Of a DNA stretch of 52,479 nt, positions 3,388 to 35,936 are shown piece by piece (the first letter of the stretch is position 1; each line of letters begins with the position of its first letter). Origin of the DNA: Actinomycetota bacterium (GTDB lineage Bacteria; Actinomycetota; Acidimicrobiia; Spongiisociales; UBA5794); NCBI GenBank assembly GCA_030123765.1, contig JASJXX010000007.1:1-52479 (forward strand), in the 5' to 3' direction. A program made the translations under genes and the position numbers. The notes below the pieces were generated by a model. That model saw only the letters and a list, made by a program, of their open reading frames with translations. It did not search any database and was not told the origin of the DNA.

Positions 3388-3428
3388 ACGTTGCCCTCCC
3401 TGGGCGGTGTGCCACCTAACCGGTGGCG

Positions 3429-3449: not shown

Positions 3450-3450
3450 A

Positions 3451-3499: not shown

Positions 3500-3663
3500 G
3501 GACACATAAGTGTAATTACATCTGTGTCACTCGTCAACCATCTTCTGAGTGCCGGTCAAGATAGCTGATTCAGGGGAAGCTGACGCATTTCTAGCGGAGT
3601 GGAGTGACACATTGCCAACTAAGGGGCAACCGTGTTTTCGCGATGTTCAGCTCTTTTCGCGAC

Positions 3664-5109: not shown

Positions 5110-5211
5110 GCCCGTATCGTCGCAGCGACCGCGTCGCTACGTGCTCGCTAGCGTGTGTGTGATCGTCTCCGCGGGAGAAGCTGACTCTTCGCTCATAGCT
5201 AGTCTCGCTGT

Positions 5212-7032: not shown

Positions 7033-7102
7033 TCTCCCGCGCTTCGGCTGGCGATCGCCAACTGGCTCGTATCATCGGCTGGAGCGATCGAGGAGGTCCC
7101 TG

Positions 7103-7990: not shown

Positions 7991-8033
7991 CTCGCACGAC
8001 CGGCCGAGCTGGTCCATAGCCGCTTCCGGGCTG

Positions 8034-8576
8034 TCAGACGTCAGAACTCAGCGCCCTGTCCTTACTCATCACCGCGAAACCCGCGTCGAGATCGCGAACG
8101 GTCATGATTCGTCGACCTGGCTGAATCGCTCCCTTTACATCACCGACAGAGAGGCCGAGCGCCTTCCACGCAAGAGCGTGCCCTTCAAGGGAGTCCTCCG
8201 TTGTAACCGCAATCCCGTAGATCGAGGCCTGCCGAACGGGTGACTCGACCACTTCGATTACGGGGCCACAGCGAAAGAACGCCGCCGGACGGCCCTGCAC
8301 CCTCATCTTGAGCCGCGGCACATCCCCAATGCGGTCGAAGGTGGTGATCGCCGCGTTCAGGTCGGGGACGAGAAGTACGACGTGGTCGAGGGCGAAGCCA
8401 GCAACCTCCGTGCCTGCCGGTGCTACCGTCGTGTGCACAGGGAATGCTGGCGCCGAAGGCTCCCACCCCCATTTCGGGTCGCCGGTCATGAGCACGACGT
8501 CGCCGAGTTTCGGGTTCTCCGGCCAATTGAAGATGGTCCAATCAATGGGGAGTTGTACGGCGGTGAGTCGGCTCAT
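8034..8576 (-). CDS. VOC/glyoxalase-fold protein
   Basis: FALDHVVLLVPDLNAAITTFDRI...RLKMRVQGRPAAFFRCGPVIEVVES. Confidence 0.75.
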   Translation of the reverse strand: MSRLTAVQLPIDWTIFNWPENPKLGDVVLMTGDPKWGWEPSAPAFPVHTTVAPAGTEVAGFALDHVVLLVPDLNAAITTFDRIGDVPRLKMRVQGRPAAFFRCGPVIEVVESPVRQASIYGIAVTTEDSLEGHALAWKALGLSVGDVKGAIQPGRRIMTVRDLDAGFAVMSKDRALSSDV

Positions 8577-8802
8577 GGATTACACCCTAGGGAGGATGAA
8601 GGCCCGACGAACCCTCGTCGTGTTGCCCCGCACTTCCCCGAACGAGGTACTTCGACGTTGGCACATCGGGCCTTCTCTTCGCAACATACGACACGGGTGA
8701 CGTGACATCAAGAGGTCCGATCCATGGAGTTCTCCCACCCGCTGGCTGACCAACGCGCGCAACTGGCCGCAATCGTCCTCATCTCGGCATCGCGTCGCTC
8801 AC

Positions 8803-8858
8803 TTCTCCACATATCCACAGCTATCCACAGGTGCTTGTGCACAACCTCTTGTGCGCAA
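8803..8858. promoter_or_regulatory. DnaA-box-like cluster plus paired TTGTGCRCAA dyads
   Basis: TTCTCCACA (8803), ATATCCACA (8811), CTATCCACA (8821), TTGTGCACAA (8835-8844), TTGTGCGCAA (8849-8858), within about 300 bp of apparent non-coding DNA. Confidence 0.4.
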
Positions 8859-8882
8859 GTTCCCCACCACAATGTTTCGCGG

Positions 8883-10112
8883 TTAGGCGGTGATGCCCTC
8901 GTAGAGCTCAAGGAGGCGAGTTGCGGTGGCATCCCATGAGAAACGCTGACTGAACGCGACGGCGCCGTCTGAGAGCCGGTGAGCGAACGATGGATAGTCG
9001 AGGATGGCGGCCACGGCGGCAGCGAACGCCTTTGGATCGTGGTCGTCGACGAGCAGGCCAGACTCGGATGCACTGACGACGTAAGGGAGGCCGCCGGTGT
9101 TGGACGCGACGACCGGAGTGCCACACGCCTGGGCCTCCGCGGCCACGAGCCCGAACGACTCGCTTCGGGAGGGGACGATGAGCACGTCTGCTGCGCGATA
9201 GTGGTCGGCGAGAACGGAGTGGGGTTGGGGATCGAAGAACCTGACGTGGTCCGAGAGGTCATGCCGGGCGATGATCTCGTGACACTCGACCAATTCGGCA
9301 GCGCCGTGCGTTCCGCTTGCACCGCCTACGACGTGGAGCCGTACGTCACCAGCGTCGCGCCCTCGGGAAGAGAGGAGTTCAGCGATCGTGTGAAGAGCGA
9401 CGTCGGTGCCCTTATGGGCCTGAATGCGACCGACGAAGAGAACGATCTTCTCATCTGAGAACCCGAGCTTTCTCCGAGCATCGGCTGTGTTGCCGCGTTG
9501 AAACACGTCATGGTCTACACCAGGTGGCGAGATGCAGAGCTGCTCCGGGGCTGCGCCGTAATGCTCGAGCAAGTCGTCGAACTCGAACGGCGTCGACGCC
9601 ACCACACAGTCGGAGTTCCGGATGATTTCTGCCTCGGTGAGGAGTCGCTCCGTGCTCGAGATCGCCTCATCCTTGCGGCGGGCCGCGTCCTTGACCCTCC
9701 CAAGGGTGTGGAACGAGTTGGCGAGGGGGATGCCGAGCTCATCCTTCATCCGTACCCCGGTCCTGCCCGACAGCCAGTAGTGGGCGTGAACCAGGTCGTA
9801 GGTGTGGCCCCTCGCCTGGATCCAGTCGATCACGCCACTGGAGAACGCAGCGACGTGTGCGGGCATGTCGTCGATCTTGAGTTTCGACGCTGGCCCGGCA
9901 TCGATGTGGACTACCCGGTAGCCCGAGACGATCTCGCTCACGGGGGGGAGGCCAGGGTCAGCGGTCCTCGTGAAGACGGTCACGTCGATGCCGCGTCCTG
10001 CCATTGTCCGCGACAGCCGGTCGAGGTACACGTTCATCCCCCCCGCATCGCCGGTACCCGGCTGGAGCAGCGGAGAGGAGTGCATGGAGATGTATGCCAC
10101 GCTTGTGATCAC
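8883..10112 (-). CDS. mshA: D-inositol-3-phosphate glycosyltransferase-like GT4 protein (mycothiol biosynthesis)
   Basis: N-terminus ISMHSSPLLQPGTGDAGGMNVYLDRLSR matches the MshA signature; ESFGLVAAEAQACGTPVVASNTGGLPYVV is a GT4 motif. Confidence 0.8.
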   Translation of the reverse strand: MITSVAYISMHSSPLLQPGTGDAGGMNVYLDRLSRTMAGRGIDVTVFTRTADPGLPPVSEIVSGYRVVHIDAGPASKLKIDDMPAHVAAFSSGVIDWIQARGHTYDLVHAHYWLSGRTGVRMKDELGIPLANSFHTLGRVKDAARRKDEAISSTERLLTEAEIIRNSDCVVASTPFEFDDLLEHYGAAPEQLCISPPGVDHDVFQRGNTADARRKLGFSDEKIVLFVGRIQAHKGTDVALHTIAELLSSRGRDAGDVRLHVVGGASGTHGAAELVECHEIIARHDLSDHVRFFDPQPHSVLADHYRAADVLIVPSRSESFGLVAAEAQACGTPVVASNTGGLPYVVSASESGLLVDDHDPKAFAAAVAAILDYPSFAHRLSDGAVAFSQRFSWDATATRLLELYEGITA

Positions 10113-11014
10113 GGCGTTCGGCCTTCCAGCATGAAGAGTGGGCGCGCCTGGGCGCCGTGACGATACTTGTACTGCTCGGTTCCCTTGAGGAAGTCGAAGA
10201 ACGTAGCGCCGCGCTTTATCTGCGCTTCGATCATTGAGGAGAGAAGTACGATGCCGGGTGATGCCAGCGCTGCGCCCGGGTCGTAGGCGGAGTTGTAGTA
10301 GTAATAGCCGTTCTCGGTCTCGAATCCGAATGCCGCAGCGCGAGGTACATCGTCGCAGACCAGGAGGTGGATCGACGCTCCAGCGGTGTTGAGAAGCTCC
10401 GTGAAGTAGTCCTGCATCGGAGCGGTCATGAACTCTCCCTTGCCGGCTGCCGAGAGGCGATGCATGGTGCAGAAGAGCTCGATGGCGTCTCCGGTGTGAC
10501 GCTCGATGGCGAACTCCCCGAACTCCGACTCGAACTTGCGCCGCTTACGGCGTGCCTCGTGGCGTTGCTTCTTGCTGAGCGACGCCAACCACCCGTCAAA
10601 GGTGTCGGGCAGAGCGAGAACGGCTGTGCTTGCATGAAGCGAGACAGTGGCCGAGATGCCCGCGTCCTCTAACGCCTCCGTGATGGGCGGAACGGTCTCA
10701 GAAGGCAGCGAATCGAGCCTGAAAGGCATGTCAGTGAAGTGCCGAAGTGCAGCGACGACCATTCGTGAGCCCTCCGAACCGAGCGGCGAGTGGTAATCCG
10801 TCAGGTCGGAGTCTCCTGCAAACTCGACGATGCCGCCGGTGGCTACGACTGCCACAATCCCGCTCTCCGTCGCCTCAATGTGCAGCTCTGCATCACGGTC
10901 CGTCCGGTGGTGCCACACGGCTTCAAGGAACGGCCGCTGCGGGAACGGTCCGGTGTCTTGCGCGATCGCCGCGAGATCTTCGGGGAACGAACTCCAGTCA
11001 CTGTTCGTCGTCAC
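10109..11014 (-). CDS. GNAT/FemAB-like (BioF2-type) acetyltransferase domain protein
   Basis: LSKKQRHEARRKRRKF...FELYYNSAYDP-like region (YYYYNSAYDPGAALASPGIVLLSSMIEAQIKRGATFFDFLKGTEQYKYRHG). GTG start overlaps the upstream asparaginase stop. Confidence 0.7.
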   Translation of the reverse strand: MTTNSDWSSFPEDLAAIAQDTGPFPQRPFLEAVWHHRTDRDAELHIEATESGIVAVVATGGIVEFAGDSDLTDYHSPLGSEGSRMVVAALRHFTDMPFRLDSLPSETVPPITEALEDAGISATVSLHASTAVLALPDTFDGWLASLSKKQRHEARRKRRKFESEFGEFAIERHTGDAIELFCTMHRLSAAGKGEFMTAPMQDYFTELLNTAGASIHLLVCDDVPRAAAFGFETENGYYYYNSAYDPGAALASPGIVLLSSMIEAQIKRGATFFDFLKGTEQYKYRHGAQARPLFMLEGRTP

Positions 11015-11943
11015 GCGTCGATCAGCTCCATGTGACCGGCCTCGCGTCCCGCTCCCATGACGGGCGGGCGCATCTGGTCCTTGAGCGCTTCTGCCATTGC
11101 GTTCGGGAGTGCTCCTACGCGACGAGCGGTGATGAGCGCAGCGGCGACCGCGACTTCGCCACGCCCCGAGTCGGACCTCGTCACGATCGTGACGCCGCTT
11201 CGTGTCATGGCGTACAGGCCCTCGGCCCCGACCTTCTGGGGACCGCCCCACCACATCCCTGCACGGCCGTCGGGTCGGAGATTGTCCGCCACAAGGGCGG
11301 GGAACCGCTTCATCGCGTGAGCCATCGGCCTGAGCTCCGGATCGGTGTCGAGCCTGCTGAATGCCAGCGCCAATCCCCGTACCGATCCCCGGAGGGTGGG
11401 CGAGCCGCACCCGTCCACGCCGACCGGCTCAGGGTCGAGCCCAGTCATCTCGGCAACGATGGTGACAGTCAGCTGCTGGAGCGGGTGGTTCGGTTCGAGA
11501 TATGTCGTTGTCTCCCACCCGGCGATCGTACACGCCGCAAGCCAGCCGGCATGCTTGCCAGAGCAGTTGTGGAACCGCGGTTCCGGCACCGAGTTCCCCC
11601 GCCGCGTCTGCATATCGTGGGCAACGCGGTTGTGCGGTCTTCCCGGAGTGCAGCGGAGATCTGCGGTGGTGAGGCCGTGATCCTGGAGGATTGCCTCGAC
11701 GATGGCGAGGTGCACAGGGAAGCCTCCGTGGGAGGCGCAGGTGACGGCGAGATGCTCGACAGGGAGTTCGAGCCCGGCGCGTGCTGCCGCGAGCGCCTGA
11801 AACGGCTTGATTGCAGACCTGTAGTACAACGGTGCATCCGGGTCGCCCGACGAGAACAGAACATCGCCATCAGAATTGACAGCGAGCGCTGTCGCGTTCT
11901 CGGACGACTCAGTGAGCCCCGATCGGACCCTCTCAAAGCGCAT
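11011..11943 (-). CDS. Asparaginase (AsnaseII / Rhizobium type)
   Basis: YRSAIKPFQALAAARAG, CASHGG, HNCSGKHAGWLAAC, VDGCGSPT motifs. Confidence 0.85.
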   Translation of the reverse strand: MRFERVRSGLTESSENATALAVNSDGDVLFSSGDPDAPLYYRSAIKPFQALAAARAGLELPVEHLAVTCASHGGFPVHLAIVEAILQDHGLTTADLRCTPGRPHNRVAHDMQTRRGNSVPEPRFHNCSGKHAGWLAACTIAGWETTTYLEPNHPLQQLTVTIVAEMTGLDPEPVGVDGCGSPTLRGSVRGLALAFSRLDTDPELRPMAHAMKRFPALVADNLRPDGRAGMWWGGPQKVGAEGLYAMTRSGVTIVTRSDSGRGEVAVAAALITARRVGALPNAMAEALKDQMRPPVMGAGREAGHMELIDA

Positions 11944-11946
11944 CGA

Positions 11947-12489
11947 TCAGCTGCTCGAGAGCAACTCGTCGGCGCTTGCGGTCCCCTCCCTGTACCGCCT
12001 GGTGAGTTCTCCCGTGATGAGGTCGTGTGCGTCGTACACGGCTCTGCGTTGCTTCGAGACCGCGCGCTCGGCCTCTGACAGGTCGTCACGGATATCTTGA
12101 AGGTCGTCGGTGCTTATCGAGGAAAGGTTCGCGAGGAAACCACCGGTCAACGCATGGTCGACGCTGCGTCTGCTGGCACCCGAGAGTTCGGGCAGGTCGA
12201 GGGACCGTTCACGGTCGAGCGGATTCGATGTCTTCCCCGAAGGTGCGTCTGCGAGAATCTCGGGTAGAGCTTCGATGAGGGTGCGGGTCTCCTCACCGCT
12301 TCGTCGCCGGAGCTCGAAGTTGAGGAGGTCAAGCCTCCCGTGGATCATGCGCCTGTAGTAGGACAGCTCTGTATCGAGATCGTCGCACACCGCACGACGG
12401 GATCGCAGGTCGTCGAGAGGGAGGGCTTCAAGGTCGGTCGTGAATGCCGGGTCGGTGACCCGGTCGATGCGTCTGCGTTGGTGCGTCAT
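11947..12489 (-). CDS. rsiG: RsiG-like anti-sigma factor
   Basis: DTELSYYRRMIHGRLDLLNFELRRR resembles the RsiG helix. Two copies of a D/E-x3-S-x2-R-x3-[H/Y]-x3-D pattern. Start set at MTHQ, with AAGGAG 8 nt upstream. Confidence 0.7.
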   Translation of the reverse strand: MTHQRRRIDRVTDPAFTTDLEALPLDDLRSRRAVCDDLDTELSYYRRMIHGRLDLLNFELRRRSGEETRTLIEALPEILADAPSGKTSNPLDRERSLDLPELSGASRRSVDHALTGGFLANLSSISTDDLQDIRDDLSEAERAVSKQRRAVYDAHDLITGELTRRYREGTASADELLSSS

Positions 12490-22425: not shown

Positions 22426-22975
22426 TTGCAGGCAACACGCAGAGAATTCCTCTACGTAGCAGGAGCCGCCGGAACGGGCACCGCTCTGTTCTTCATCTCT
22501 TCATCCTCCCGAAGTTTGTCGGTCTGACGGGCCAGGCGAAGGCGCTGCAATAGTCGGCGTCTTCCCAAGCGTGAAGGTCGCTTCCCTCTCTGAACTTCAA
22601 GAGGGTGTCCCCGTTTTCTTTGACTACCCGCAAGTCGGACAGGGGAACATCCTCGTCAAGATGGGTGAGCCGGTCATCGGCGGAGTCGGTCCTGATGAGG
22701 ACATCGTTGCTTTCTCGAGGATCTGCACCCACATGGGATGCCCGATCAGTGAGTACCAGCATGAGTACAAGGCGCTCGGCCCGTGCGTCTGCCACTTCAC
22801 GACGTTCGACCTCATCCATGGAGGAATGGTCGCCATGGGCCAGGCCACCCAGAACCTGCCCCAGGTCATACTCGACATTGACGGCGACGCGGTCATGGCT
22901 GGTGGGCTCCTGCGCCTCGTCTACGGATACGACAACGCCATCGAGGGTGGAGAACTGGTAGGAGGAACGCTGTGA
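22426..22975 (+). CDS. Arsenite-oxidase-like Rieske small subunit (AioB-like); Tat signal and Rieske domain in different frames
   Basis: Frame 1 from TTG 22426: MQATRREFLYVAGAAGTGTALFF (Tat signal). The Rieske domain (VKVASLSELQEG...CTHMGC...CVCHF) is in another frame; intact in-frame part is 22571-22975. Confidence 0.7.
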
Positions 22976-25449
22976 CGCAGACCCCTGCATTCGTGCCGCT
23001 GCCTCCGGTTGACGCCGAGGTCAAGGTCATCTGCTGTGAATACTGTCCCGTCGCGTGCGGTTACAAGGTCTACCTCTGGCCCGAGGGGAGGGACGGTGGC
23101 CGCGCTGCAAGCGAGAATGCTCTCGGTATCGACTTCCCGACAGATCCGCTCTCTGGCAGATGGCCCTCAGAGAACATGCATACGGTCATCGAACAGAACG
23201 GGCAGCAGACGAACGTCATCATCATCCCCGATGGGGACTCTGATGTCGTGAACGTCGGGGGATCCCACTCGGTTCGCGGCGGAGCGCTCGCCAAGAAGCT
23301 GTACACCAAGAACGGTCTGACATCGGATCGGTATCTCACGCCACTGTTGAAGGTCAACGGGGAACACGTCCCTATCCCATGGGATACCGCGATCGAGCTT
23401 GTGGCCCGTCTCTCGCAGTATGTTCTCGAGGAGTGGGATGAGCTCGCGTGGGGCTTCAAGATCTACTCGTACCAGTTCTACGAGAACGTCTTCGCAGGTT
23501 CCAAGCTTGCTCTTGGCGAGATCGGCACACCAAACTTCTCCGCGCATCATGCGCCTGCGGCCGGTGACGACGTTCCAGGTCTCTCGGACACGGGAGTTGA
23601 CGCATTCGGATCGGCCTTTGTGGACGACAAGGCTGCAGATGTGCTGTTCATCGTGGGTTCAGACCCGTACGAGACGAAGACGGTCCGGTTCACCCAGTGG
23701 ATGCAGCCGGGTGGCGCGACCATCATCTACGTCGACCCACGAAAGACGTTCACCGCGAACTACGCGGTGCAACGCGGTGGTCTCCACCTCCAGTTGCTCC
23801 CTGGAACAGACACAGCGCTCCTGGGCGCTATCGCGCGCGAGATCGTTGCGAACGGTTGGGAGGACGCCGAATTCATCAGGGATCACATGGCGTCAGCCGA
23901 CGAGATCGCTGCTGAGGGAAAGTGGCGCAGGGTGAGGTTCGGCCGTTCCTTCGAGCAGTACAAGGAATATCTGATGGCTGAGCATGACTTCAGCCCGGAA
24001 GGCGTTGAAGCTGCGACAAGTGTGCCTTATGACAAGATCCGGTCGGCAGCCGAGATGATGTCCGGCGGCGGCGGCGGCGATCGCCCTAAGACGATGGTCC
24101 TGTTTGAGAAGGGCCTCTACTGGTCACACAATTACGAGAACACTGCGGCGATAGGCAGCCTCGGTATGTTGCTCGGAGCTGTTGGACGTGAGGGCCGCGC
24201 GACGTCTCGCCTGGGTGGACACCAGCGTGGCGGCCAGAAGGCGGCTGGCTATCCGAAGGACAAGTCGCCGCACTTCTTCGAGGATCACCCTGTCGAGATG
24301 GACACCGAGAGGTGGCTCTATGAAGGCAAGACTCGTCTCCGCTGGATTGTTGGCACGAACTGGATCAGCGCGATGGGCGCGTCCAACGCCCTTGAGGCGA
24401 AGGTGAAGGAGCTTACGACAATGGGTCCGGAGGTCACTTCGACCGACGTCGAGGCGGCATACGAAGCGCTCAAGGAGCGGATGGACGCCGGTGGCACTGT
24501 GATCGTGCACCAGGAGATCTACCCGAACGACTCGACACCGTATGCGGACATCATCCTCGCGGCGGGAGCGTGGGGGGAGGACACGTACGCCAGGAACAAC
24601 TCCGAGCGCAGGCTGAGGATCTACGAGAAGATCATGGATCCGCCCGGTGAGGCGCTCCCTGACTGGAAAATCTTTCAGGCCGTCGCTCAGAAGATGGGAT
24701 TCGAAGGTTTCGATTGGCAGGACACGAATGAAATATTCGAGGAGGCCGCAGCGAAGTCGTCCGGCGGACGGAGAAACTTCGCCGCGCTCGTCGAGAAGGC
24801 CGGGGCTGATGGCGTGAGAGGCCACGATCTGCTTGCGACCTACGGCACCCAGGGCCTTCAGACCCCGCTGAAGCTCGAAGGTGGCGAGCTCGTCGAGACC
24901 GTCCGGCTCCACGCCGACATGAAGTTCAATACCGACTCCGGAAAGGCGAACTTCGTGTTCGCTGATTGGGATGCCGTCAAGGAGCGCAACGCGATTCTCG
25001 CGCCCACGGGTGACGAGGTGTGGGTGCTCAACGGCCGTGTCAACGCGCTTTGGAACAATCTGTCTGACAATCTCCGCAGAGAGATCTCAAAGGAGCGGTG
25101 GCCGACAAACTTCCTCGAGGTCAACCCGCAGGACGCGGCGGATTGGGGTCTTGAGAACGGCGACCAGGTCGCCATCGAGTCGGACAGTGTGCTCGACTTC
25201 GTCGGGAAGAAGGTCACGGGTCGTTTCGAGGCGGCGGTGTACGTCTCTGACATCGTTCCACCGGGTATCACGTTCACGTACTTCATGTTCCCGGGCAACC
25301 CGGCGAACGCAGTCGTATCGGGCGACACGAGCCTCCAGCCGCTCAACTTGAGGAACAACTTCAAGCTTGGCAAGGGCACGATCACCAAGATCGGACGATC
25401 CGAATACGCAGACGTGATGTCCTTCGTTCCGAGAAACCTGGTGCCCTGA
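22972..25449 (+). CDS. Arsenite-oxidase-like molybdopterin large subunit (AioA/IdrA family)
   Basis: CEYCPVACGYKVY (C-x2-C-x3-C without a fourth Cys; GGSHSVRGG follows), FIVGSDPYETKTVRF, IYVDPRKTFTANYA. No signal peptide. GTGA overlap with the Rieske gene. Confidence 0.75.
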   Translation: MTQTPAFVPLPPVDAEVKVICCEYCPVACGYKVYLWPEGRDGGRAASENALGIDFPTDPLSGRWPSENMHTVIEQNGQQTNVIIIPDGDSDVVNVGGSHSVRGGALAKKLYTKNGLTSDRYLTPLLKVNGEHVPIPWDTAIELVARLSQYVLEEWDELAWGFKIYSYQFYENVFAGSKLALGEIGTPNFSAHHAPAAGDDVPGLSDTGVDAFGSAFVDDKAADVLFIVGSDPYETKTVRFTQWMQPGGATIIYVDPRKTFTANYAVQRGGLHLQLLPGTDTALLGAIAREIVANGWEDAEFIRDHMASADEIAAEGKWRRVRFGRSFEQYKEYLMAEHDFSPEGVEAATSVPYDKIRSAAEMMSGGGGGDRPKTMVLFEKGLYWSHNYENTAAIGSLGMLLGAVGREGRATSRLGGHQRGGQKAAGYPKDKSPHFFEDHPVEMDTERWLYEGKTRLRWIVGTNWISAMGASNALEAKVKELTTMGPEVTSTDVEAAYEALKERMDAGGTVIVHQEIYPNDSTPYADIILAAGAWGEDTYARNNSERRLRIYEKIMDPPGEALPDWKIFQAVAQKMGFEGFDWQDTNEIFEEAAAKSSGGRRNFAALVEKAGADGVRGHDLLATYGTQGLQTPLKLEGGELVETVRLHADMKFNTDSGKANFVFADWDAVKERNAILAPTGDEVWVLNGRVNALWNNLSDNLRREISKERWPTNFLEVNPQDAADWGLENGDQVAIESDSVLDFVGKKVTGRFEAAVYVSDIVPPGITFTYFMFPGNPANAVVSGDTSLQPLNLRNNFKLGKGTITKIGRSEYADVMSFVPRNLVP

Positions 25450-25488: not shown

Positions 25489-25737
25489 GTGAGCATCGTC
25501 GTATTCACCCGTCAGGGATGTCCGTTGTGTGCCGAGGGCATCGCGATCGCTCGGTCCGTGTTCGGTGGCGACGGCGTAGCCCTCGTGGACGTGGATCTTG
25601 ACCTCGAGCTGCTGGAGCGGTACACCGATCGAGTCCCGGTCATCGAGACCGAGGACGGAGCGGTGATCGATGAAGGCATCATCAGCGAGCAGGTGATCCG
25701 CGCCTTCAGAGCGGGTACTACCTGCTCCCCACGTTGA
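25489..25737 (+). CDS. Glutaredoxin-like (DUF836-type) thioredoxin-fold protein
   Basis: VVFTRQGCPLCAEG CxxC motif; RVPVIETEDG. Confidence 0.75.
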   Translation: MSIVVFTRQGCPLCAEGIAIARSVFGGDGVALVDVDLDLELLERYTDRVPVIETEDGAVIDEGIISEQVIRAFRAGTTCSPR

Positions 25738-26944
25738 CGACGCGTTCGATCGCTGTGTAGACGTGCTCTGACATCTTCGCTTCGTCAGGGTCGAGGAGGT
25801 TGGCCATGACCTTGAGCGTCCACTCCATCAGTGGCCGTGAGCGGAGTCCCACCGTGGTGAGCGTCCGCATGACTACAGGGTTGCCGATCGCCTTGACGAA
25901 CACTCGCGCAACGCGGTGATAGTCGCCGTAGACATCCTCAAGCTCCCTGGAGTAGCCAGCGAGGGCCTCGTCGTCTCCCGCGGCTGCTTCGGCTACCCAC
26001 CGTGCCGCCATTCTTCCTGTCTCGTATGCGTAGTCGATTCCCTCGCCGTTGAAGGGGTTCACCGCACCAGAGGCATCGCCAATGATCACCCAGTTGCGAC
26101 CGACCTTAGGGCCGACGGAGAGCGACATCGGGAGCTTGCCGCCTATCGGCTTCGTATGCGGCGTCACCTCGGTGACCTTCCAATGGTCGGGGAGGGAAGC
26201 GATGTAGGCGTCGAGGATCCGGCTCGTGTTGATGTCCTTCCAACCCTTGAAGGTGGAGATGAGGCCTGCACCAACGTTGATCTCGCCGTCGCCGAGCGGG
26301 AACACCCACCCGTATCCGGGCATGGCTCGTCCCTCGGCGTCGCGGATGTCGAGCTGGCTCTCGATGAAGCGGTCATCTGAGTGGGGGCTCTCGTAGTAGG
26401 CGCGCACCGCGAGGCCGAACGGGTAGTCCTTGCGTCGGGAAGCACCAACGTTCCGTCCGAATCGAGAGTTCGATCCGTCTGCGATGATGACGAGATCGGG
26501 GTGTACGACGCGGGCGCCCTCATCGTTCGTGAGGCGAACCCCTGTGATCGTGTCGTCCGCGACGATGGGCGCGGCCGTTGTCCCCTGCTCGATGGTTGCA
26601 CCGTGCTTCTCCGCCATTCCGGCGACGACGCCGTCGAGATCTGCCCGGCGCATCGTGGCTCCCCAGTTCGGGTACGCGGAGTGTTCTGGCCACGGCATCT
26701 CCATCTTGAGGCCGCCTGCGTAAGCTCGAAGCCCTTCGATGCGGTGCAGGTCGAGGCCGTCGAAGTCGAAGCCCATATCCAGGAGCTCTCTGATTGCTCG
26801 GGGAGTCAGCCCGTCGCCGCATGCCTTCTCACGCGGATAGCGCTTCTTCTCCACGAGGTGAACCTCGACACCGTTGCGGGCGAGCCAGAACGCGGCTGCG
26901 GCACCACCGGGTCCGCCGCCAACGACAAGAACCGTCTTTGTCAT
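25718..26944 (-). CDS. Geranylgeranyl reductase family FAD oxidoreductase (MenJ-like)
   Basis: VVGGGPGGAAAAFWLARNGVEVHLVEKKRYPREKACGDGLTPRA; IGDASGAVNPFNGEGIDYAYETGRMAA. Confidence 0.85.
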   Translation of the reverse strand: MTKTVLVVGGGPGGAAAAFWLARNGVEVHLVEKKRYPREKACGDGLTPRAIRELLDMGFDFDGLDLHRIEGLRAYAGGLKMEMPWPEHSAYPNWGATMRRADLDGVVAGMAEKHGATIEQGTTAAPIVADDTITGVRLTNDEGARVVHPDLVIIADGSNSRFGRNVGASRRKDYPFGLAVRAYYESPHSDDRFIESQLDIRDAEGRAMPGYGWVFPLGDGEINVGAGLISTFKGWKDINTSRILDAYIASLPDHWKVTEVTPHTKPIGGKLPMSLSVGPKVGRNWVIIGDASGAVNPFNGEGIDYAYETGRMAARWVAEAAAGDDEALAGYSRELEDVYGDYHRVARVFVKAIGNPVVMRTLTTVGLRSRPLMEWTLKVMANLLDPDEAKMSEHVYTAIERVVNVGSR

Positions 26945-26983: not shown

Positions 26984-28138
26984 TCAGGAACTGGCAGCTT
27001 CGGTGGCGGCACCACCGACGAGGCCACAGTCGATCTCAGCTTGTTCGAGAGGCTGGCCTCCGAACTCGACACGGTTGAAGAGGCTCACGGCAGCGACCTG
27101 CTCATCGGTCAACCTTCCCCCGAACCCGGGCATGAGGCCGAATCCGCCCACAGGCTTGTTGGTCGCGCCGTAGGTCGGATCTGGCCAGCCTGCCGTGCCG
27201 AGTTGCGTCCATTCGATCTGCTCGGCACATGAGCCTGCCGGGAAGACTGCCAGTAGTGCTCCGCCCGTGAACGCAGGTCCTGCGCCTCCGGAGCCATCTG
27301 CGCTGTGGCAGGCAGCGCACTGGACGTAGAGAATCTCACCCTCAGCGAAGAAGTCGGCTTGCACGAGTCCAAACGCCGACCCGTCACAGTTCACGGTTTG
27401 GCCCGTTGTGGGATCTACGAGCAACTGGCCCGCGTTCCCGCAGTCGGGACCGCTCGGGGTGAGGAGGATGTAGATGATGGCGAGGAGCGGGATGAGCACG
27501 AACGCGGCTGCGAGCCAGCGTGGGTAGCCGCTCCGCGCGCCCGGGGTCTCCTTCGCCTCCTCCGATGGTGTATCGGCCTCTGGAGCGGAGGCCTCGATGA
27601 CGTCAACCTCGGGAGCAGCCTCCGGCTCCTCCTCCTTCGCGGAGGTCGGTGCCGAAGCTGAATCTTGTTCGGGAGGAGCTGCCGTCGCTGGTTCTGGTTC
27701 GGCAGCGGGCTCCGGGCTGGCAGGGGCAGCATCGGCCGCAGCTCTGAGCTCATCGAGATCGACTCCTGCCCAATCCGCGAGGACCTCGTCGATCGTCGAC
27801 TCCGAGTGCTCCGCTCTCGCGGTCGCCGACGAGAGGATCAACTTTGGCGGCATGCGCTTGGCATCTGCCGCGAGTTGTACGAGGGAGTCGGTTGTGACCT
27901 TCGCGGGAGGTGCGGCCGGTGCAGCAGGTGCAGCAGGTGGAGCAGGCGCGTCGGAGAGCGGCTCCGTCGCTTCTGGCTGAGCCGATGCAGGCTCACCTGC
28001 GTCGGCATCGCCCGCCCACTCGCGCAGCACAGCTTCAAGCGTCGTCCCTATCTTGTCGGCGCGTGCCTGGGCCGACCGTTTGACGAGAGACGCCGGCATC
28101 CCCCTGATCTCGGCCACTCGCTGGAGCAGTTCTTCCAT
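26984..28138 (-). CDS. Membrane-anchored cytochrome c with two copies of an N-terminal helical motif
   Basis: N-terminal repeats GMPASLVKRSAQARADKIGTTLEAVLREWAG and RMPPKLILSSATARAEHSESTIDEVLADWAG, Pro/Ala/Glu linker, one TM, CAACH haem site. Confidence 0.85.
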   Translation of the reverse strand: MEELLQRVAEIRGMPASLVKRSAQARADKIGTTLEAVLREWAGDADAGEPASAQPEATEPLSDAPAPPAAPAAPAAPPAKVTTDSLVQLAADAKRMPPKLILSSATARAEHSESTIDEVLADWAGVDLDELRAAADAAPASPEPAAEPEPATAAPPEQDSASAPTSAKEEEPEAAPEVDVIEASAPEADTPSEEAKETPGARSGYPRWLAAAFVLIPLLAIIYILLTPSGPDCGNAGQLLVDPTTGQTVNCDGSAFGLVQADFFAEGEILYVQCAACHSADGSGGAGPAFTGGALLAVFPAGSCAEQIEWTQLGTAGWPDPTYGATNKPVGGFGLMPGFGGRLTDEQVAAVSLFNRVEFGGQPLEQAEIDCGLVGGAATEAASS

Positions 28139-28142
28139 CGTT

Positions 28143-30044
28143 CTACCTCAACGTCTCGATGTAGCTGACAATTGCGTCGATGTCCGCCTCCGAGAGATAG
28201 GAGTAGGACGGCATGATCGACCACGGTCGTGCAGACCGCGGATCGATCAGGTGTGACCTGACAAATGAGGGGTCAAAACCCTCGCGGCTGGCGACACGCA
28301 TCAGGTCCGGCCCGAACCGCATGCCGGTAACCAGCGCGGGATCCTCATGGGCGTAGTCGCCGGCGACGCTCACCGCGCCGAGACCAACATCGGTGACGAT
28401 CGGTCGGACCGACTGGGAGTGGCACTCTGCGCAGCCTTCGGAGATGTAGATTTCGCGTCCCTGGAGTTCGAGGGTTCCCGCCTCATAGGTTCGGAACCGA
28501 TCCGCCGTTAGTGACGACGCGGTGCTCGTGTTGTCCATCATCGGGAGAATTGCCGTGAAGAGCGCTGCGGCTACCCAGACGGCTGTCGCACCCCAGACGA
28601 GGCGTCTCCACGTGAGGTATCGGACGGCACCTTCGAACTGCAGGTCGTACTCGATCGGAGCCTCGGAGACTTCGAGGAGTTCGCTCGAAGTCGTCCTGAT
28701 CCGGAGTAGATATCCGACCTGAGCGATCGAGTACAGCACGAGCGAGATAGCTGCTACCCAGAGGAATGGGGCGAGCGAAGCGACGGCGATCTCATAGCCA
28801 GGCCCATAATTTGGGAAGAGCTGGCTCGACGGACCCGCGATCCAGGAGAAACCTGAGACTGCGCCCCCGGCGAGAAACGCAACGGACGCGCCGGCCACAC
28901 CGATGAGTGACCACGAGAAGTGGAAGCTCGACCCGGATGCCCTACCGCCCCTGCGAACGCTGTTCGCAGCGAATATGGCGAACGATCCACCACCCAGGAC
29001 GATGAGTGTCTCAAGGCCCGTGGTCCACGTGGAGTACTGAACCGCGCCACTCGTCGCTCGCCACGCGGCGAGGAAGTTGACGATGGTCGCTGTAGCGAGA
29101 GCGAGGCCTGCGACGACGCCGTAGCGCAACGTTGCTCGGTCGGGGATGCTGGCAGTGCGGCCTTTCAGCATCAACCCGAGATCCATGACGATCGCGAGCA
29201 GAGGGACGAATGCCGCGATCGCGAATGCAATGGTGAGGGTCTCGTACCAGTCCGGGCTCGCCGAGTAGATGAGTTCGACGCCGCCCATGAATGCCCACAC
29301 GAGCGTGAGTGACCAGAAGCCGAGCGCCGCGAGCGGCCTTGGCTCAGTGGGGTCGACGCCGCTGATTTTCGAGAAGGCGAAGTAGAGGAGACCGACAGCG
29401 AGGCTCACAGCGAAGAGCCGGTTCGTCCCTGCGTACACGAATGCTGCCTGGATCGATCCCGGGATCCCTGACATGAGCGGGATCAGTCCGAAGAGCGCTG
29501 ATGCGGTGAGCCACCAGGATGCAGCGGTGATGTACCAGCCTGCGGCCCCGAGGCGATCAGCTCGTTGCTTCGCCATCGCGGTGATGACGAGAGAAGCTGC
29601 AAGGTATCCGATGGCTGAGATCGCCCTTGTCCAGATCGGGCCTTCCTGGCCGGGGATTCCGGAGGAGAGCCCACCGATGAGGGCTCCGGCGGTCGCGAAC
29701 ACTCCGAACGCGATGAGCACTAGCGCGGTCATGGCGAGACGCTTGCGCCGCAATTCTTGACCCGTGATCTGGCTGAGGACGTAGAACGAGAGGCCGAGGC
29801 CTGCAAGGGTGAGCCATCCGCTGGCGAGTAGGGCGCGTCCGGCTGGTGCGAGCCGACCGTAGGTTGTGTACGCGGTTCCCGACAAGAGGTCGGGGAGAAC
29901 GAGCTGGAGAGCCGCGAGCGTCGTGGTCACGAGCCCGAGCACGAAGAGGAACGTCGCTACCAGTACGTACTTACCGGCCATCCTGGCCCCTCTGTCGTCA
30001 GCCTCAGCTCGGACTGGTTCATGCGGTGCAATGTCAGCGGTCAC
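28143..30044 (-). CDS. CcoN-like (no metal-ligand histidines) / CcoO fusion protein
   Basis: N-terminal region aligns by eye with CcoN (QLVLPDL..TTYGRLAPAGRA; SPDWYETL); C-terminus GREIYISEGCAECHSQSVRP...GPDLMRV...MPSYSYL is CcoO-like. GTG start at 30044 follows GGAGG; the ORF track extends to 30125. Confidence 0.75.
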   Translation of the reverse strand: MTADIAPHEPVRAEADDRGARMAGKYVLVATFLFVLGLVTTTLAALQLVLPDLLSGTAYTTYGRLAPAGRALLASGWLTLAGLGLSFYVLSQITGQELRRKRLAMTALVLIAFGVFATAGALIGGLSSGIPGQEGPIWTRAISAIGYLAASLVITAMAKQRADRLGAAGWYITAASWWLTASALFGLIPLMSGIPGSIQAAFVYAGTNRLFAVSLAVGLLYFAFSKISGVDPTEPRPLAALGFWSLTLVWAFMGGVELIYSASPDWYETLTIAFAIAAFVPLLAIVMDLGLMLKGRTASIPDRATLRYGVVAGLALATATIVNFLAAWRATSGAVQYSTWTTGLETLIVLGGGSFAIFAANSVRRGGRASGSSFHFSWSLIGVAGASVAFLAGGAVSGFSWIAGPSSQLFPNYGPGYEIAVASLAPFLWVAAISLVLYSIAQVGYLLRIRTTSSELLEVSEAPIEYDLQFEGAVRYLTWRRLVWGATAVWVAAALFTAILPMMDNTSTASSLTADRFRTYEAGTLELQGREIYISEGCAECHSQSVRPIVTDVGLGAVSVAGDYAHEDPALVTGMRFGPDLMRVASREGFDPSFVRSHLIDPRSARPWSIMPSYSYLSEADIDAIVSYIETLR

Positions 30045-30259
30045 GCTTGCAGCGTCCTCCTGATGGGGCTTCTTGTTCGTGGTATCACTCGGCGGCTGAA
30101 ACTCTAGCCGCAGACACGGCGGCACCTGTTATCGGTTGGTGATCCTTGATGGAATCGTCGAGAATTCTCGTGCTTCTTTCGACAAATTGCAGGTGAGGCA
30201 ACTTGAGTGCCGAAGCTATCGCCAGTGGCGTACAATGCCGGAGCCCGCTAGGGAGACTC

Positions 30260-30844
30260 GTGAGAAAGCACAAGAATCTCGTCACAGGAATCGCGCTCAT
30301 CGTGATCGGTCTTGCCGTCACGACCGCCGGCTCGATCGTGGTGCACATGACCGAGGCCCCGCCATTTGACAGCCTCGGCAGGGAGCTTTTCCCCAACGTT
30401 CCTCGCGGTTGGATCCTCACCACCGTTGCACAACTCGTCGCGCTCGGCGGTGTACTCGTCGCTATGGCAGGGGTCACGGTCGCCTGGGTCTACAAGCGCA
30501 CTCTCACCTGGGCTACCGCCATGCTGGGAGCACTCCTATTCACGGCTCTGATGTTCATCATTTTTGCCATCATCCCGAACCAGTTCCTGACCCTCACGCA
30601 GGCGACGCTCGAGTGGACTCCGCGGAAGATCTTCGTGACGATCCCTCTGGTCCTGGCACTGAACAACGAGGTCTCGATCTCGTACGCCGTGCTCAAGGAC
30701 ATGATCGCAGCAGGGTACGCGTCGACGATGCTCATCCTGGTCCCGGTCGTGATGTACAAGTGGCAGGAGCGACCGAAGAAGGTAGTCGCGCCGAAACCAG
30801 CACCTGTCTCGCACTATGGTCGGCCGCTGCGAGTCGACCCCTGA
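30260..30844 (+). CDS. Membrane protein of unknown function, first gene of the bc locus
   Basis: Several TM segments. GTG start at 30260 with GGGAG upstream fits better than the ORF-track TTG at 30203. Confidence 0.65.
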   Translation: MRKHKNLVTGIALIVIGLAVTTAGSIVVHMTEAPPFDSLGRELFPNVPRGWILTTVAQLVALGGVLVAMAGVTVAWVYKRTLTWATAMLGALLFTALMFIIFAIIPNQFLTLTQATLEWTPRKIFVTIPLVLALNNEVSISYAVLKDMIAAGYASTMLILVPVVMYKWQERPKKVVAPKPAPVSHYGRPLRVDP

Positions 30845-31317: not shown

Positions 31318-32094
31318 TTGGCAGATGGAAACGGGAGAGGCGGCATCAAGGAAGCCGTAGCAGGGATGGGAAGTCATCTCCGCGAATCTCAGGTGTGGAA
31401 CTCGATCTTCCGCCCTGGCTCCCCGATGCGATCAGACAACAGCGATTCACCCCGGAACCGCTCATACGTGGTGATGAACAACGTGCTGTACCACCTCCAC
31501 CCGGTGAAGGTGAAGCGCCATGGTGTCAGGATCTCCTACACGCTCTGCCTGGGTGGGCTGAGCTTCTTCCTCTTCATCCTGCTCACCATCACAGGTATCT
31601 TCCTGATGTTCTACTACCGGCCAACGTCACCTCAGGCCTATTTCGATCTTCAAGCCCTCGGGTCGGATGTGGCCTTCGGGCAGCTCGTGCGCAATATGCA
31701 CAGGTGGGGCGCCCACATCATGGTGCTCACTGTCTTCCTCCACATGAGTCGCGTGTTCTATCACGGCGCGTACAAGCCACCGCGTGAGTTCAACTGGGTT
31801 GTTGGCATTATTCTGCTGCTCTTCACACTTCTCCTGTCATTCACTGGATATCTGCTGCCTTGGGATCAACTCGCGCTCTGGGCGGTGACCGTCGGATCGA
31901 ACATGGCGGGCTACACACCTGTGTTCGGTGAACAAGTGACTTTTGCGTTGGTGGGTGGAATCCAGATCACGGCAGATACGTTGCTGCGGTGGTACGTCCT
32001 CCACGTGCTCTTCCTCCCCTTCATCATGGTTATCTTTATGGCCGTCCACTTCTGGCGTGTCCGTAAAGATGGCGGCCTCTCCGGACCCCTCTAA
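31318..32094 (+). CDS. Cytochrome b N-terminal half (b6-like)
   Basis: FYYRPTSPQAYFDLQ, MHRWGAHIMVLTVFLHMSRVF, GYLLPWDQLALWAVTVGSNM, LHVLFLPFIMVIFMAVHFWRVRKDG. Confidence 0.93.
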   Translation: MADGNGRGGIKEAVAGMGSHLRESQVWNSIFRPGSPMRSDNSDSPRNRSYVVMNNVLYHLHPVKVKRHGVRISYTLCLGGLSFFLFILLTITGIFLMFYYRPTSPQAYFDLQALGSDVAFGQLVRNMHRWGAHIMVLTVFLHMSRVFYHGAYKPPREFNWVVGIILLLFTLLLSFTGYLLPWDQLALWAVTVGSNMAGYTPVFGEQVTFALVGGIQITADTLLRWYVLHVLFLPFIMVIFMAVHFWRVRKDGGLSGPL

Positions 32095-32103
32095 GGAGAT
32101 ATC

Positions 32104-32979
32104 GTGGCGCAGCTACCAGAGAGCCTCCTTAGACGGTCTGCAGAGGCGCGAGCGAAGGCGGAAGGCCGTTCCGTTGAGGATGTGCTCGCGGAGATAAAGG
32201 GCGAAGCGCCTCCTACGGCTCCTCCTCCCGCAGTCGCGGAGACACCGGCTCCGGCTGCAGGAGGTGGTGGAAGGGATCTTGACGCAGAGGCAGCGACGTT
32301 CGGTGTTCCCCGACCGCTTCTCGAACGGTCGATGTTCGCCAGGTCCAAGGCTGATGGCACACCGGTGCCGGCCATGGCGGGAGTTGCCGCCCCGGCCGCT
32401 GCAGCCACTGCCGTGACTGCCGCGCCTGCCCCGGCGCCAGCTGCCTTCTCGGGGCCACCGCCAGGCGTCCGCACGCAGCGCCTGCTGACAGTTGTCAAAG
32501 CTGGCGCGATTCAGGGGACGGGGAGAGAGCCAGAGGACAAGGTCAATGTGTGGCCACATCTGCTGGCGATCGAATTCGTGGCACTGCTGGCAATGCTTGC
32601 GTTTCTCACACTGTTGTCGGCGTTCGTGGACGCTCCGCTCCTTGAGTTCGCCAACTTCAATCAGCAGCCGAACCCGTCGAAGGCGCCTTGGTACTTCCTC
32701 GGCCTCCAGGAGCTTCTCGCGTACTTCGATCCACAGGTCGCGGGCATCATCATCCCCGGCTTCGGTGTGGCGGCGCTCGCGTTCATCCCGTACATAGACC
32801 GCAATCCCTCGGTACGGCCGTCTGACCGCAAGTTCGCTATCTCGCTCTTCACCGTGTTCTTCGTGGGAGCATCCGTGTTGACGATCTTCGGCTCCTTCTT
32901 CCGGGGACCCGGCTTCAACTTCGTGTTTCCATGGGTCGATGGAATATTCTTCGACGACCTACTGACGATTCTCGAATGA
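32104..32979 (+). CDS. Cytochrome b C-terminal half (subunit IV-like) with N-terminal motif repeats
   Basis: NPSKAPWYFLGLQELLAYFDP in the C-terminal part; N-terminus LPESLLRRSAEARAKAEGRSVEDVLAEIKGE and GVPRPLLERSMFARSKADG. Confidence 0.9.
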   Translation: MAQLPESLLRRSAEARAKAEGRSVEDVLAEIKGEAPPTAPPPAVAETPAPAAGGGGRDLDAEAATFGVPRPLLERSMFARSKADGTPVPAMAGVAAPAAAATAVTAAPAPAPAAFSGPPPGVRTQRLLTVVKAGAIQGTGREPEDKVNVWPHLLAIEFVALLAMLAFLTLLSAFVDAPLLEFANFNQQPNPSKAPWYFLGLQELLAYFDPQVAGIIIPGFGVAALAFIPYIDRNPSVRPSDRKFAISLFTVFFVGASVLTIFGSFFRGPGFNFVFPWVDGIFFDDLLTILE

Positions 32980-33836
32980 CACCTACCACCATCTTCATGT
33001 TGATCATCGTTGCCGCTGCATTGATCGTGGCTGCTGGCATCGTTGCCGTCGCGTCCAGACGTAAGGACTCCGAGGGCGCCGTCACCCAGGCCGAACTTGA
33101 TCGTAAGGCGGCCAAGGCAGACCGGGCAAGGAGACAGGCCATCGAGGAAGTTGCCGCTTCCCACGGAGGTGGCGTGACCACGACCGCGGTCATGGTGGTC
33201 GAGGCGCCAGCCGAGTACCGGGATGACGAGCCGCGCAGAGAGATCTCGGAGGTTGAGTACGGCGTCACGAGGCGGAAGTTCTTCAATCGTGCGATCGGCG
33301 CCGTGTTCGGCCTCTTCATGTTGCAGTTCGCCCTCGCAGGCCTCGCCTTCGTCTGGCCGAAACTGAAAGGCGGATTCGGAACACCCATCACGGTAGGTCC
33401 CGTTGCGGAGATCAAGGCCGAGGTTCTCCGGGAAGGAAAGGTCGTTCCCAAGGCCGTTCCAGCCGCCCAGGCATGGATCATTCCCTTTGAACTTTCAAAG
33501 CTGCCCGGTTCTTCGTTCGAAGAGATCCCGTTCGTCATCGCGGGAGGCGAGTCTGACGGCGTGGGACTCATGGCGTTGTGGCATCGCTGTGTTCACCTCG
33601 GATGTCGCGTCCCGGAGTGCATCCCATCCCAGGGGTTCGAGTGCCCCTGCCACGGTTCAAAGTTCAACCGTCACGGTGAGTACGAGGGAGGACCCGCACC
33701 GCGCAATTTCGATCGCTTCAGTGTGAGCGTGGATAGTGCAGGAAACTTCGTGATCGACACGGGAACGATCGTTCAGACGGCCAGGTCCAAGAAAAAAACG
33801 GTGGCCTATCCGCAGGGCCCATTCTGCGTGGGGTGA
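32976..33836 (+). CDS. Rieske iron-sulfur subunit of bc complex (QcrA-like)
   Basis: CVHLGCRVPECIPSQGFECPCHGSKF; extra N-terminal TM; TRRKFFNRAIGAVFG. Confidence 0.92.
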   Translation: MTPTTIFMLIIVAAALIVAAGIVAVASRRKDSEGAVTQAELDRKAAKADRARRQAIEEVAASHGGGVTTTAVMVVEAPAEYRDDEPRREISEVEYGVTRRKFFNRAIGAVFGLFMLQFALAGLAFVWPKLKGGFGTPITVGPVAEIKAEVLREGKVVPKAVPAAQAWIIPFELSKLPGSSFEEIPFVIAGGESDGVGLMALWHRCVHLGCRVPECIPSQGFECPCHGSKFNRHGEYEGGPAPRNFDRFSVSVDSAGNFVIDTGTIVQTARSKKKTVAYPQGPFCVG

Positions 33837-33843
33837 TCACGAA

Positions 33844-35427
33844 GTGAACTACTTGACCATTGTGAGCGCTGCCGGCGCGGAAGAAACCGCCGCTTTAGGT
33901 GGCGGGCTCGGAATCGGCGCGTACGCACTCATCCTCGTTGTGGCGCTGCTCCTCGGTTGGATGGGATACCTCTTCGTCAACTCTCGCCGATCCAAGATCG
34001 CGGCTCAGGAGCCGGCGCCTCTGAACTTGACCCCCGGCGTTTCAGACGACGAGCTTGAGAACAAGAAGCTGACGCGCGTGCTGCGCGCCGCTCTGCTCGG
34101 GTCGGCGCTCATGGCGATCATCATGCCGTGGTACGCCTTCAACGAACCAGGACGGCAGGAGGCATTTGCCGAGGCAGTTGTCAACCTGGACATCGAGGAA
34201 GGCGCGCACTGGTACAGCCCCGGCGGCTTCGCCTGTGCCGATTGTCACGGTCCGGCAGGGGGCGGTGGCAGCGCACCATTCAAGGAGGTTCGCTCCGGGG
34301 TCGCCACGGTGTGGGCTGTCCCGCCGCTCGACGACGTGTTCTTCCGGTATGAAGAGGATGAGGTCCGACAGTGGATCGTGTTCGGTGTCCATGGCACCCC
34401 GATGCCGGCGAACGGACTGGACGGTGGCGGGTCGATGACCGTCCAGGAAGTTGATCAGGTGATTGCCTTTCTCCGGTCTATCCAGATCAGCCAGCAAGAG
34501 GCATTCGCCAAGTCCCAGGGTGTAGCCGAGCGTGCGCTGACCCAACTTGAAGGCGGTGTCGCGGCGACAGAGAAGCTCATCGCCTTCCAGGTGGCGCAGA
34601 TCGAGGAGGTCAGAGCTGCTCCAGGGAACCTGAACGTCGTCGGTACGCTCCCTGATGACGTCAAGAACTTCCTTCAGGCACCAGGTATGTGCACGGAGGA
34701 GTCCGCGGCACTCGTCAGTACGACGTGTGACCAGCCAGGCACCGACACAGATCGGGACGGGCTCACCGATGAGGCCGAGAAAGGCCTCACCGCGATCGCC
34801 GGGGTCGCCTATCAGCATCTCAAAGAGATCCAATTCCTCGCCGATCAAGACGTGTATGGACTCGTATCACAGCGTGCGTACGACCTTCGCTTCGACCCAT
34901 TCGACGCCTTCACCGGTGGGAGCGGTGATCTTGCGGACGCCGAAGCCCTGCTCCTGCATGTGGGAACCGATGTGCTGCTGCTCTCCGTAACCGCCGAGCG
35001 TCAGGTCCCATTCCTCGAAGGCCTCGAGTCCGGCCTCGCGTTCCTCCAGGACGCTCTCGAGAAGCGCCTCTGGGAGATCGATTTTGCTGCGGTCGCATCC
35101 GAGATGGATGTGAGCGAGGGGGACGCCAGGCTCGCAGTGGGACTCTTCAACGGCTACTGCGCGCAGTGTCACACCGCGGGTTTCTCCGCCGGACCCACCT
35201 TCAGCCAGGGACCCGGAACCGGAGCATGGGGGCCGTCGCTCGTGAACGGTCGCTCCGAAATCCAGTTCCCGGACATCCAGGACCAGATCATGTTCATCAT
35301 CTCAGGGTCGGTGCACGCAAGGAAGTATGGACTCAACGGGCTCGGTTCCGGCCGGATGCCTGGCTTCGGCACGGTACTCTCCGAGCTTCAGATCGAGTTG
35401 ATCGTCAAGTACGAGAGGACGCTGTGA
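33844..35427 (+). CDS. Membrane-bound diheme cytochrome c with Ca-binding-like loop
   Basis: CADCH and CAQCH; intervening TDTDRDGLTDEAEKGL. Confidence 0.85.
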   Translation: MNYLTIVSAAGAEETAALGGGLGIGAYALILVVALLLGWMGYLFVNSRRSKIAAQEPAPLNLTPGVSDDELENKKLTRVLRAALLGSALMAIIMPWYAFNEPGRQEAFAEAVVNLDIEEGAHWYSPGGFACADCHGPAGGGGSAPFKEVRSGVATVWAVPPLDDVFFRYEEDEVRQWIVFGVHGTPMPANGLDGGGSMTVQEVDQVIAFLRSIQISQQEAFAKSQGVAERALTQLEGGVAATEKLIAFQVAQIEEVRAAPGNLNVVGTLPDDVKNFLQAPGMCTEESAALVSTTCDQPGTDTDRDGLTDEAEKGLTAIAGVAYQHLKEIQFLADQDVYGLVSQRAYDLRFDPFDAFTGGSGDLADAEALLLHVGTDVLLLSVTAERQVPFLEGLESGLAFLQDALEKRLWEIDFAAVASEMDVSEGDARLAVGLFNGYCAQCHTAGFSAGPTFSQGPGTGAWGPSLVNGRSEIQFPDIQDQIMFIISGSVHARKYGLNGLGSGRMPGFGTVLSELQIELIVKYERTL

Positions 35428-35936
35428 TGGATCGGCTATCTCGCATGGTGCAGCGCATACAGCGCGAAGAATCGGGTATCACGAAGCTTGAGACGCTCGG
35501 TCTGATCTCCTTCGTCGCTGCTCTGCTCTCCATGGTCCCCGCGGTCCGTGAGTTCGTCGTTGGGCTCATCGGCATCGTATTCGGCCAGATGGACCCCGAG
35601 ACGGGACATCCGAATGAGTTCTCGACCTTCACGAGAGGTGTTGCCATCGTCGCAGGTGCGATCCTCGTGTTCATCGGGTCCGGGTGGTTCCTGCTCTGGA
35701 CGAACCTCGGCAAGCGTCTCTCGTTCCTCCTCACAGGCGCCGCGACTTTCGGGTGGCTCGTGATCAACGGCGTCCTCTTCATCGTGTACGCACCTCGTGG
35801 GGTCCGACCGGAGAACCTTGAGGGCTTGAACTCGATCCAGGTGCGGCTCCCGGCGATCGCGATGACGGCGGGCTCGGTTGTGCTCTTCATCATGTTCTAC
35901 ATAGCGCTCCATCGCTACGAGACAGACGAGGCGTAG
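35427..35936 (+). CDS. Membrane protein of unknown function, last gene of the bc locus
   Basis: ATG overlaps the upstream stop; four predicted TM segments. Confidence 0.75.
   Translation: MDRLSRMVQRIQREESGITKLETLGLISFVAALLSMVPAVREFVVGLIGIVFGQMDPETGHPNEFSTFTRGVAIVAGAILVFIGSGWFLLWTNLGKRLSFLLTGAATFGWLVINGVLFIVYAPRGVRPENLEGLNSIQVRLPAIAMTAGSVVLFIMFYIALHRYETDEA

Follow-up and report, generated by a model that had tools for sequence, protein, structure and literature searches.

A ligand-less CcoN-CcoO fusion protein encoded beside cytochrome b6/Rieske genes in Actinomycetota

A gene found in an Actinomycetota bacterium raises the question of what a relative of the cbb3 oxidase subunit CcoN can do when its haem and copper ligands are gone. 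To our knowledge, it is by the metal ligands of subunit I that the family is defined throughout the haem-copper oxidase superfamily, and a search of a library of open-access papers gave no description of a ligand-less CcoN. The gene lies in a stretch of 52,479 nucleotides (contig JASJXX010000007.1 of assembly GCA_030123765.1), which is referred to here as the window. A preliminary description, made from the letters of the window, had read the product as a CcoN-CcoO fusion that cannot reduce O2 and may serve as a membrane scaffold or electron conduit tied to the adjacent bc complex.

The fusion protein and its lost ligands

The longest open reading frame at this place runs over 28143-30125 on the minus strand and encodes 660 aa. 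The true gene is very likely shorter, starting with GTG at 30044 and ending at the stop at 28143, because the GTG is preceded by AGGAGG a few bases upstream and because the "VTAD" encoded from it marks the point where conservation among relatives starts. Translation of the same interval on the plus strand gave many stops, as expected for a minus-strand gene. In the numbering of the 660-aa frame, the CcoN part covers about residues 45-490 and the CcoO part about 505-660. Pfam search matched COX1 at residues 49-461 (9.6e-20) and FixO at 515-651 (5e-28). The best NCBIfam match was the bifunctional cbb3 subunit I/II fusion model, with 134 bits against a cut-off of 1080; the ccoO and ccoN models matched as well, and all of these scores were far under the curated cut-offs. 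An AlphaFold model from a three-sequence alignment (the window protein with its relatives L034 and L035) reached a pLDDT of 40.

We built a profile from 26 relatives and searched it with hmmsearch against the PDB sequences. It aligned collinearly with Pseudomonas stutzeri CcoN (3mk7_A) over residues 7-466 with an E value of 1.7e-51, which spans the whole membrane domain. Other cbb3 subunits I were matched at 5.5e-45 or better, and NorB was matched far more weakly. Together with the FixO match, this bears out the reading as a CcoN-CcoO fusion. The CcoO half retains both CAECH and the Met of MPSY, so that the C-terminus is intact, as had been described.

In the register of 3mk7, the six His ligands of haem b, haem b3 and CuB are replaced in the window protein by other residues (H60 by G, H207 by T, H257 by V, H258 by E, H345 by L and H347 by T), and none of the six is kept. 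The four segments that had been compared by eye all proved correct. The sole His of the membrane domain, in SSFHFSW, lies opposite the "HFW" of canonical CcoN, whose His is not a ligand. Kinship with CcoN is thus firm, ligand-position His is absent from the window protein, and the substitutions extend beyond this genome. Among 45 full-length relatives from several Actinomycetota families, His was found in 1 of 270 cells at the ligand positions, the single case being L077 (family f7), where it aligns with H257. The active-site Tyr251 is Tyr in 0% of these relatives, and W203 and H337 are likewise gone, while Trp245 is retained in 45 of 45. At the positions invariant in eight canonical CcoN, His was kept in 0.3% of cells and Gly, Pro or Trp in 58%, which indicates that the ligand loss is not due to chance. 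Judged from these alignments, the fold is kept and the active site is gone.

Since the ligands of haem b, haem b3 and CuB are absent, the ligand-less CcoN should, as far as its sequence tells, neither reduce O2 nor carry electrons within the membrane. A protein that still binds haem or copper through non-His ligands or shifted residues, and thus stays redox-active, is very improbable. The His of L077 in the H257 register points weakly in that direction, but it is one cell of 270, Tyr251, W203 and H337 are lost, and no conserved replacement ligand has appeared: no new His, Cys, Met or Lys column reaches 60% across the ligand-less set.

A widespread clade under purifying selection

The survey of relatives covered the phylum Actinomycetota. 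The profile matched 53 of the 60 genomes nearest to that of the window; 52 of them carry the protein, the 53rd match being just a short cytochrome c match. Class-wide, 118 of 247 genomes matched, some of them by weak cross-matches. Of the 40 full-length relatives taken from the class, L077 alone has a His at a ligand position. Five further ligand-less relatives (L116-L119 and L122) came from the families f59, f63 and f89 elsewhere in the phylum. Five divergent CcoN in f69, f70 and f78 (L120, L121 and L123-L125) possess all six His and Tyr251.

In a tree computed under a mixture model with the ligand columns removed, a single branch set all 45 ligand-less proteins apart from the others (support 78/74; 82% of bootstraps). 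A single change leading to ligand loss suffices to explain this tree, with moderate support. NorB proteins of the phylum branch apart with 100/100 support; this separation and the lack of His at the ligand positions rule out a NorB identity. The ligand-less CcoN is therefore lineage-wide and far broader than a single genome.

Seven closely related pairs of ligand-less proteins gave dN/dS values of 0.03-0.21, and dS was saturated in one more pair. CxxCH was present in all 38 CcoO-like frames checked. That the gene is the remnant of a decaying cbb3 oxidase is hardly conceivable. Every catalytic residue has been lost, as decay would predict, but the frames are intact in dozens of genomes, dN/dS is well below 1, the gene is retained in genomes of about 1 Mb, and the synteny and co-inheritance given below are conserved. 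The selection and synteny results refute a pseudogene. Since a widespread clade kept by purifying selection has lost the six ligands and Tyr251, the data also support the earlier proposal that the protein is unable to reduce O2 in the manner of a haem-copper oxidase.

The same strong selection might be taken to mean that the ligand-less CcoN has acquired a new role within the membrane, for instance as a menaquinol site or as a proton or ion pathway, comparable with the NrfD-like subunits of alternative complex III, which carry no haem. Polar or charged residues are conserved at the P. stutzeri positions R55, R83, E125, D266, Q269 and K330, the last two being E and R in the family, which is more conservation than a bare anchor might need. 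However, several of these positions are common to canonical CcoN or lie beside structural Trp or Pro, no new His, Cys, Met or Lys column has arisen at the level given above, and homology to NrfD was not seen in a Pfam scan of the window proteins. We regard this function as unlikely.

A conserved cluster with cytochrome b6 and Rieske genes

The features of the window that bear on the fusion protein are listed in Table 1.

Table 1. Coordinates of the fusion gene and the features around it in the window
Feature	Position	Strand	Remarks
Arsenite oxidase AioB and AioA	22571-25449	plus	both above curated NCBIfam cut-offs
Geranylgeranyl-reductase/menaquinone-reductase (MenJ)-like FAD enzyme	25718..26944	minus	frequent conserved neighbour
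cytC1, membrane-anchored monohaem cytochrome c	26984..28138	minus	Pfam Cytochrom_C 6.7e-6
Docking-like domain copies of cytC1	27764-28135	minus	
Ligand-less CcoN fused to CcoO-like monohaem cytochrome c	28143..30044	minus	633 aa
TM213, small membrane protein at the start of the divergent bc operon	30203..30844	plus	37/40 neighbourhoods
2x[4Fe-4S] ferredoxin-like protein, 139 aa	30868..31287	plus	two CxxCxxCxxxC motifs; 39/40 neighbourhoods
Cytochrome b6-type subunit	31318..32094	plus	Pfam Cytochrome_B 1.2e-46
Subunit IV (PetD-like) with N-terminal docking-like extension	32104..32979	plus	Pfam Cytochrom_B_C 6e-8
Docking-like domain copies of subunit IV	32104-32202 and 32290-32367	plus	
Rieske iron-sulfur subunit	32976..33836	plus	Pfam Rieske 3.6e-8; longest ORF from 32931
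Dihaem cytochrome c (CADCH, CAQCH)	33844..35427	plus	Pfam Cytochrome_CBB3 2.2e-11; 36 neighbourhoods
TM256, small membrane protein, last gene of the bc operon	35427..35936	plus	36 neighbourhoods

The cytochrome b6-type subunit has both His pairs for haem b (HX13H and HX14H), and it is the only PF00033 cytochrome b match in the genome of the window. The QcrB and QcrA models scored far under their cut-offs (NF050120, 106.8 of 500 bits; NF050121, 22.6 of 275 bits). cytC1 consists of two N-terminal docking-like domains, a TM helix and a CAACH haem domain; it is monohaem and gave no ccoP match, and FixP_N was matched marginally in an f89 neighbour (E 9e-4). The FAD enzyme was above the cut-off of the NCBIfam model GG-red-SF and matched MenJ at 2.3e-83, but under the cut-off of that model. 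TM213 had no family match.

We fetched and compared 40 neighbourhoods of the ligand-less CcoN. The cluster is conserved in 39 of them, the absent members lying mostly past contig ends. Its order is TM protein, ferredoxin, cytochrome b6, subunit IV, Rieske, dihaem c and TM protein, divergent from CcoN, CcoO and cytC1. CcoN and CcoO are fused or separate depending on the neighbourhood, cytC1 is conserved near CcoO in the 40 neighbourhoods, and both the geranylgeranyl/menaquinone reductase flavoprotein and the nuo operon often lie nearby. The check proposed in the first reading, whether ligand-less CcoN form a conserved clade next to the cytochrome b6 and subunit IV genes, gave a grouping of all 45 proteins in the tree with moderate support, and linkage in 39 of 40 neighbourhoods. 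The constant ferredoxin of the bc operon perhaps serves for electron entry from the cytoplasm. Locus L034, titled Acidobacteria bacterium N075bin75, carries a same-genus copy of the actinobacterial cluster and is probably a mislabelled MAG.

The AioBA genes lie about 3 kb from the fusion gene, and arsenite oxidase could feed electrons into the chain of the window strain. That the fusion serves mainly as electron acceptor of this enzyme is nevertheless extremely improbable, as the same queries found AioA and AioB in 0 of 40 other neighbourhoods. AioBA is ruled out as a conserved partner and is a local neighbour only.

Among the 60 related genomes, 50 have both the ligand-less CcoN and a type-1 cytochrome b, two have only the one, two only the other, and six have neither (Fisher p=1.5e-5, with related genomes counted as independent). 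All four disagreements lie at contig ends. A second type of cytochrome b complex, whose cytochrome b is about 50% identical, was seen at L139 (G039:C63:42000-58000). It belongs to a family without the ligand-less CcoN and lies, as identified by eye, near a gene resembling a nitrate reductase iron-sulfur subunit.

Our analysis also found a domain of about 35 residues that opens both subunit IV and cytC1, with the consensus PExLxRRSAEARAKAxGxxVExVLAEWAG. In a genome-wide search (E<0.001), it occurred in these two proteins only, twice in each, and it gave no Pfam match at E<=0.001. This small repeated domain is a candidate docking module. Both of its carriers would expose it on the cytoplasmic side if their topology is that of b6f subunit IV and of a single-TM cytochrome c. 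Linkage, co-inheritance and this domain, which is common to both divergent operons, strongly support the suggested tie of the fusion protein to the adjacent bc complex, as far as genes can indicate it.

The genome of the window encodes two intact type-A (aa3) oxidases with CuA-type subunits II, and these are predicted to carry out its O2 reduction. A strong aa3 subunit I was found in 45 of the 52 genomes with the ligand-less CcoN and in 1 of the 6 without the cluster (p=9e-4, related genomes again being counted as independent). Three of these six have no COX1-family match at all. One genome, G028 (95% complete), has the cluster but no COX1 match, and another, G059, has aa3 but no cluster; both speak against the role proposed below.

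A variant arrangement was found at L095 (family f15; 3183-12237, minus strand), where the ligand-less CcoN is fused to a C-terminal cupredoxin domain. It is followed in a single run by COX2-cytochrome c, COX1, COX3, COX4, CtaG, CcoO and cytC1, and the run is divergent from ferredoxin, cytochrome b6 and subunit IV. With this complete caa3 operon, a single locus unites the dead CcoN with genes of the bc complex and of a working caa3 oxidase, and the fusion shows that CcoN can bear a different electron carrier. Cytochrome c maturation genes (ResB and CcsA-type, or CcmE/CcmF) occur in the loci of f13, f15 and f89. They lie between CcoN and the bc genes, and CtaG adjoins CcoO in L095, so the ligand-less CcoN could be a platform for assembly or maturation of cytochromes c or of the aa3 oxidase, and not a permanent subunit. 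This appears rather improbable to us. The window has no biogenesis gene between its two divergent operons, and CcoN in most cases is joined to, or lies next to, a CcoO that bears haem, and in L095 is fused to the cupredoxin, which argues for an electron carrier role.

A proposed role in complex III

We consider it reasonably probable, from the sequence data, that the fusion protein is a non-oxidase subunit of the cytochrome b/Rieske complex (complex III) of this lineage, in which a cofactor-free haem-copper oxidase fold is reused as scaffold or electron relay. Menaquinol would be oxidised at the site formed by b6, subunit IV and Rieske, and electrons would pass from Rieske to the dihaem cytochrome c and on to the CcoO haem. 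The cofactor-free multi-helix body of CcoN would hold this haem at the outer membrane face, from where electrons may reach the tethered cytC1 and then the CuA centre of the aa3/caa3 oxidase. Conduction through the membrane part of CcoN is thus not predicted; it would take place only at the haem of the attached CcoO or, in a single family, at the cupredoxin. The membrane part would be a structural platform possibly keeping complexes III and IV together. The docking-like domains of subunit IV and cytC1 may join both halves on the cytoplasmic side. Plausibly, the protein arose from a functional cbb3 oxidase that lost its active site but kept the subunit by which electrons enter. Genomic linkage and co-inheritance do not prove a physical association of the ligand-less CcoN with the bc complex; we infer this association, as well as the scaffold or conduit role, the order of the path, the supercomplex and the origin from a cbb3 oxidase.

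More tentatively, the dead oxidase core may be an obligatory complex III subunit in a major branch of the Actinomycetota, in which it would physically bridge b6/Rieske to aa3 in a previously undescribed, built-in III-IV supercomplex. This branch would include streamlined marine genomes from which complex III has been reported missing. The known actinobacterial bcc-aa3 supercomplex (QcrCAB with CtaCDEF) passes the electrons of complex III to aa3 by a tethered haem c. The task would be the same in the same phylum, but in the present cluster a CcoO mounted on a dead CcoN, together with cytC1, would form the tether.

As compared with the cbb3 oxidase (P. stutzeri 3mk7; fused CcoNO model NF011053), both subunits are homologous over their full length, with the same CcoN-CcoO order or fusion, the haem c site of CcoO and the structural Trp, Gly and Pro. 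However, the ligands of haem b, b3 and CuB and the active-site Tyr are absent, the cluster has no copper-ATPase neighbour, and the partner is a b6/Rieske complex. The five ligand-bearing CcoN of the phylum match the profile with E values of about 1e-79 to 1e-90, far better than the other ligand-bearing haem-copper oxidases found there. They differ from the ligand-less proteins in having the six His and Tyr and a multihaem CcoO, and the genes of f69 and f70 adjoin that CcoO and heavy-metal (copper-type) P-type ATPases instead. With the b6f and heliobacterial type of Rieske-cytochrome b complex, the cluster shares split b6 and subunit IV, HX13H/HX14H, Rieske and dihaem c, but it adds the ferredoxin, two small membrane proteins, the docking-like extension of subunit IV and the CcoN-CcoO/cytC1 arm. 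The CcoNOP fusion of Nitrospina gracilis likewise has an unusual subunit I of the cbb3 type, in which residues near CuB are altered; most of its haem and CuB sites are kept, and the enzyme is considered the terminal oxidase (PMC3578206).

The presence of this fold without cofactors throughout a lineage would mean that the haem-copper oxidase fold lends itself to a second use, as a respiratory subunit without catalysis. Where annotation is automated, COX1 or CcoN labels would assign to these proteins an oxidase activity and high-affinity O2 respiration that the ligand-less CcoN is predicted to be unable to perform.

The cluster was also found in the genomes of family f12 (L099-L103), which are up to about 1.1 Mb in size with 34-36% GC in the cluster. 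In these loci, cytochrome b6 has its two His pairs and Rieske its two motifs, and genes for dihaem c and for CcoN and CcoO of the ligand-less type are present as well. The family probably corresponds to "Ca. Actinomarinales", the sister of order UBA5794, in which complex III has been stated to be missing (PMC7771536). If this assignment is right, that statement needs correction, and the cluster is a concrete candidate for complex III in these low-GC genomes of about 1 Mb.
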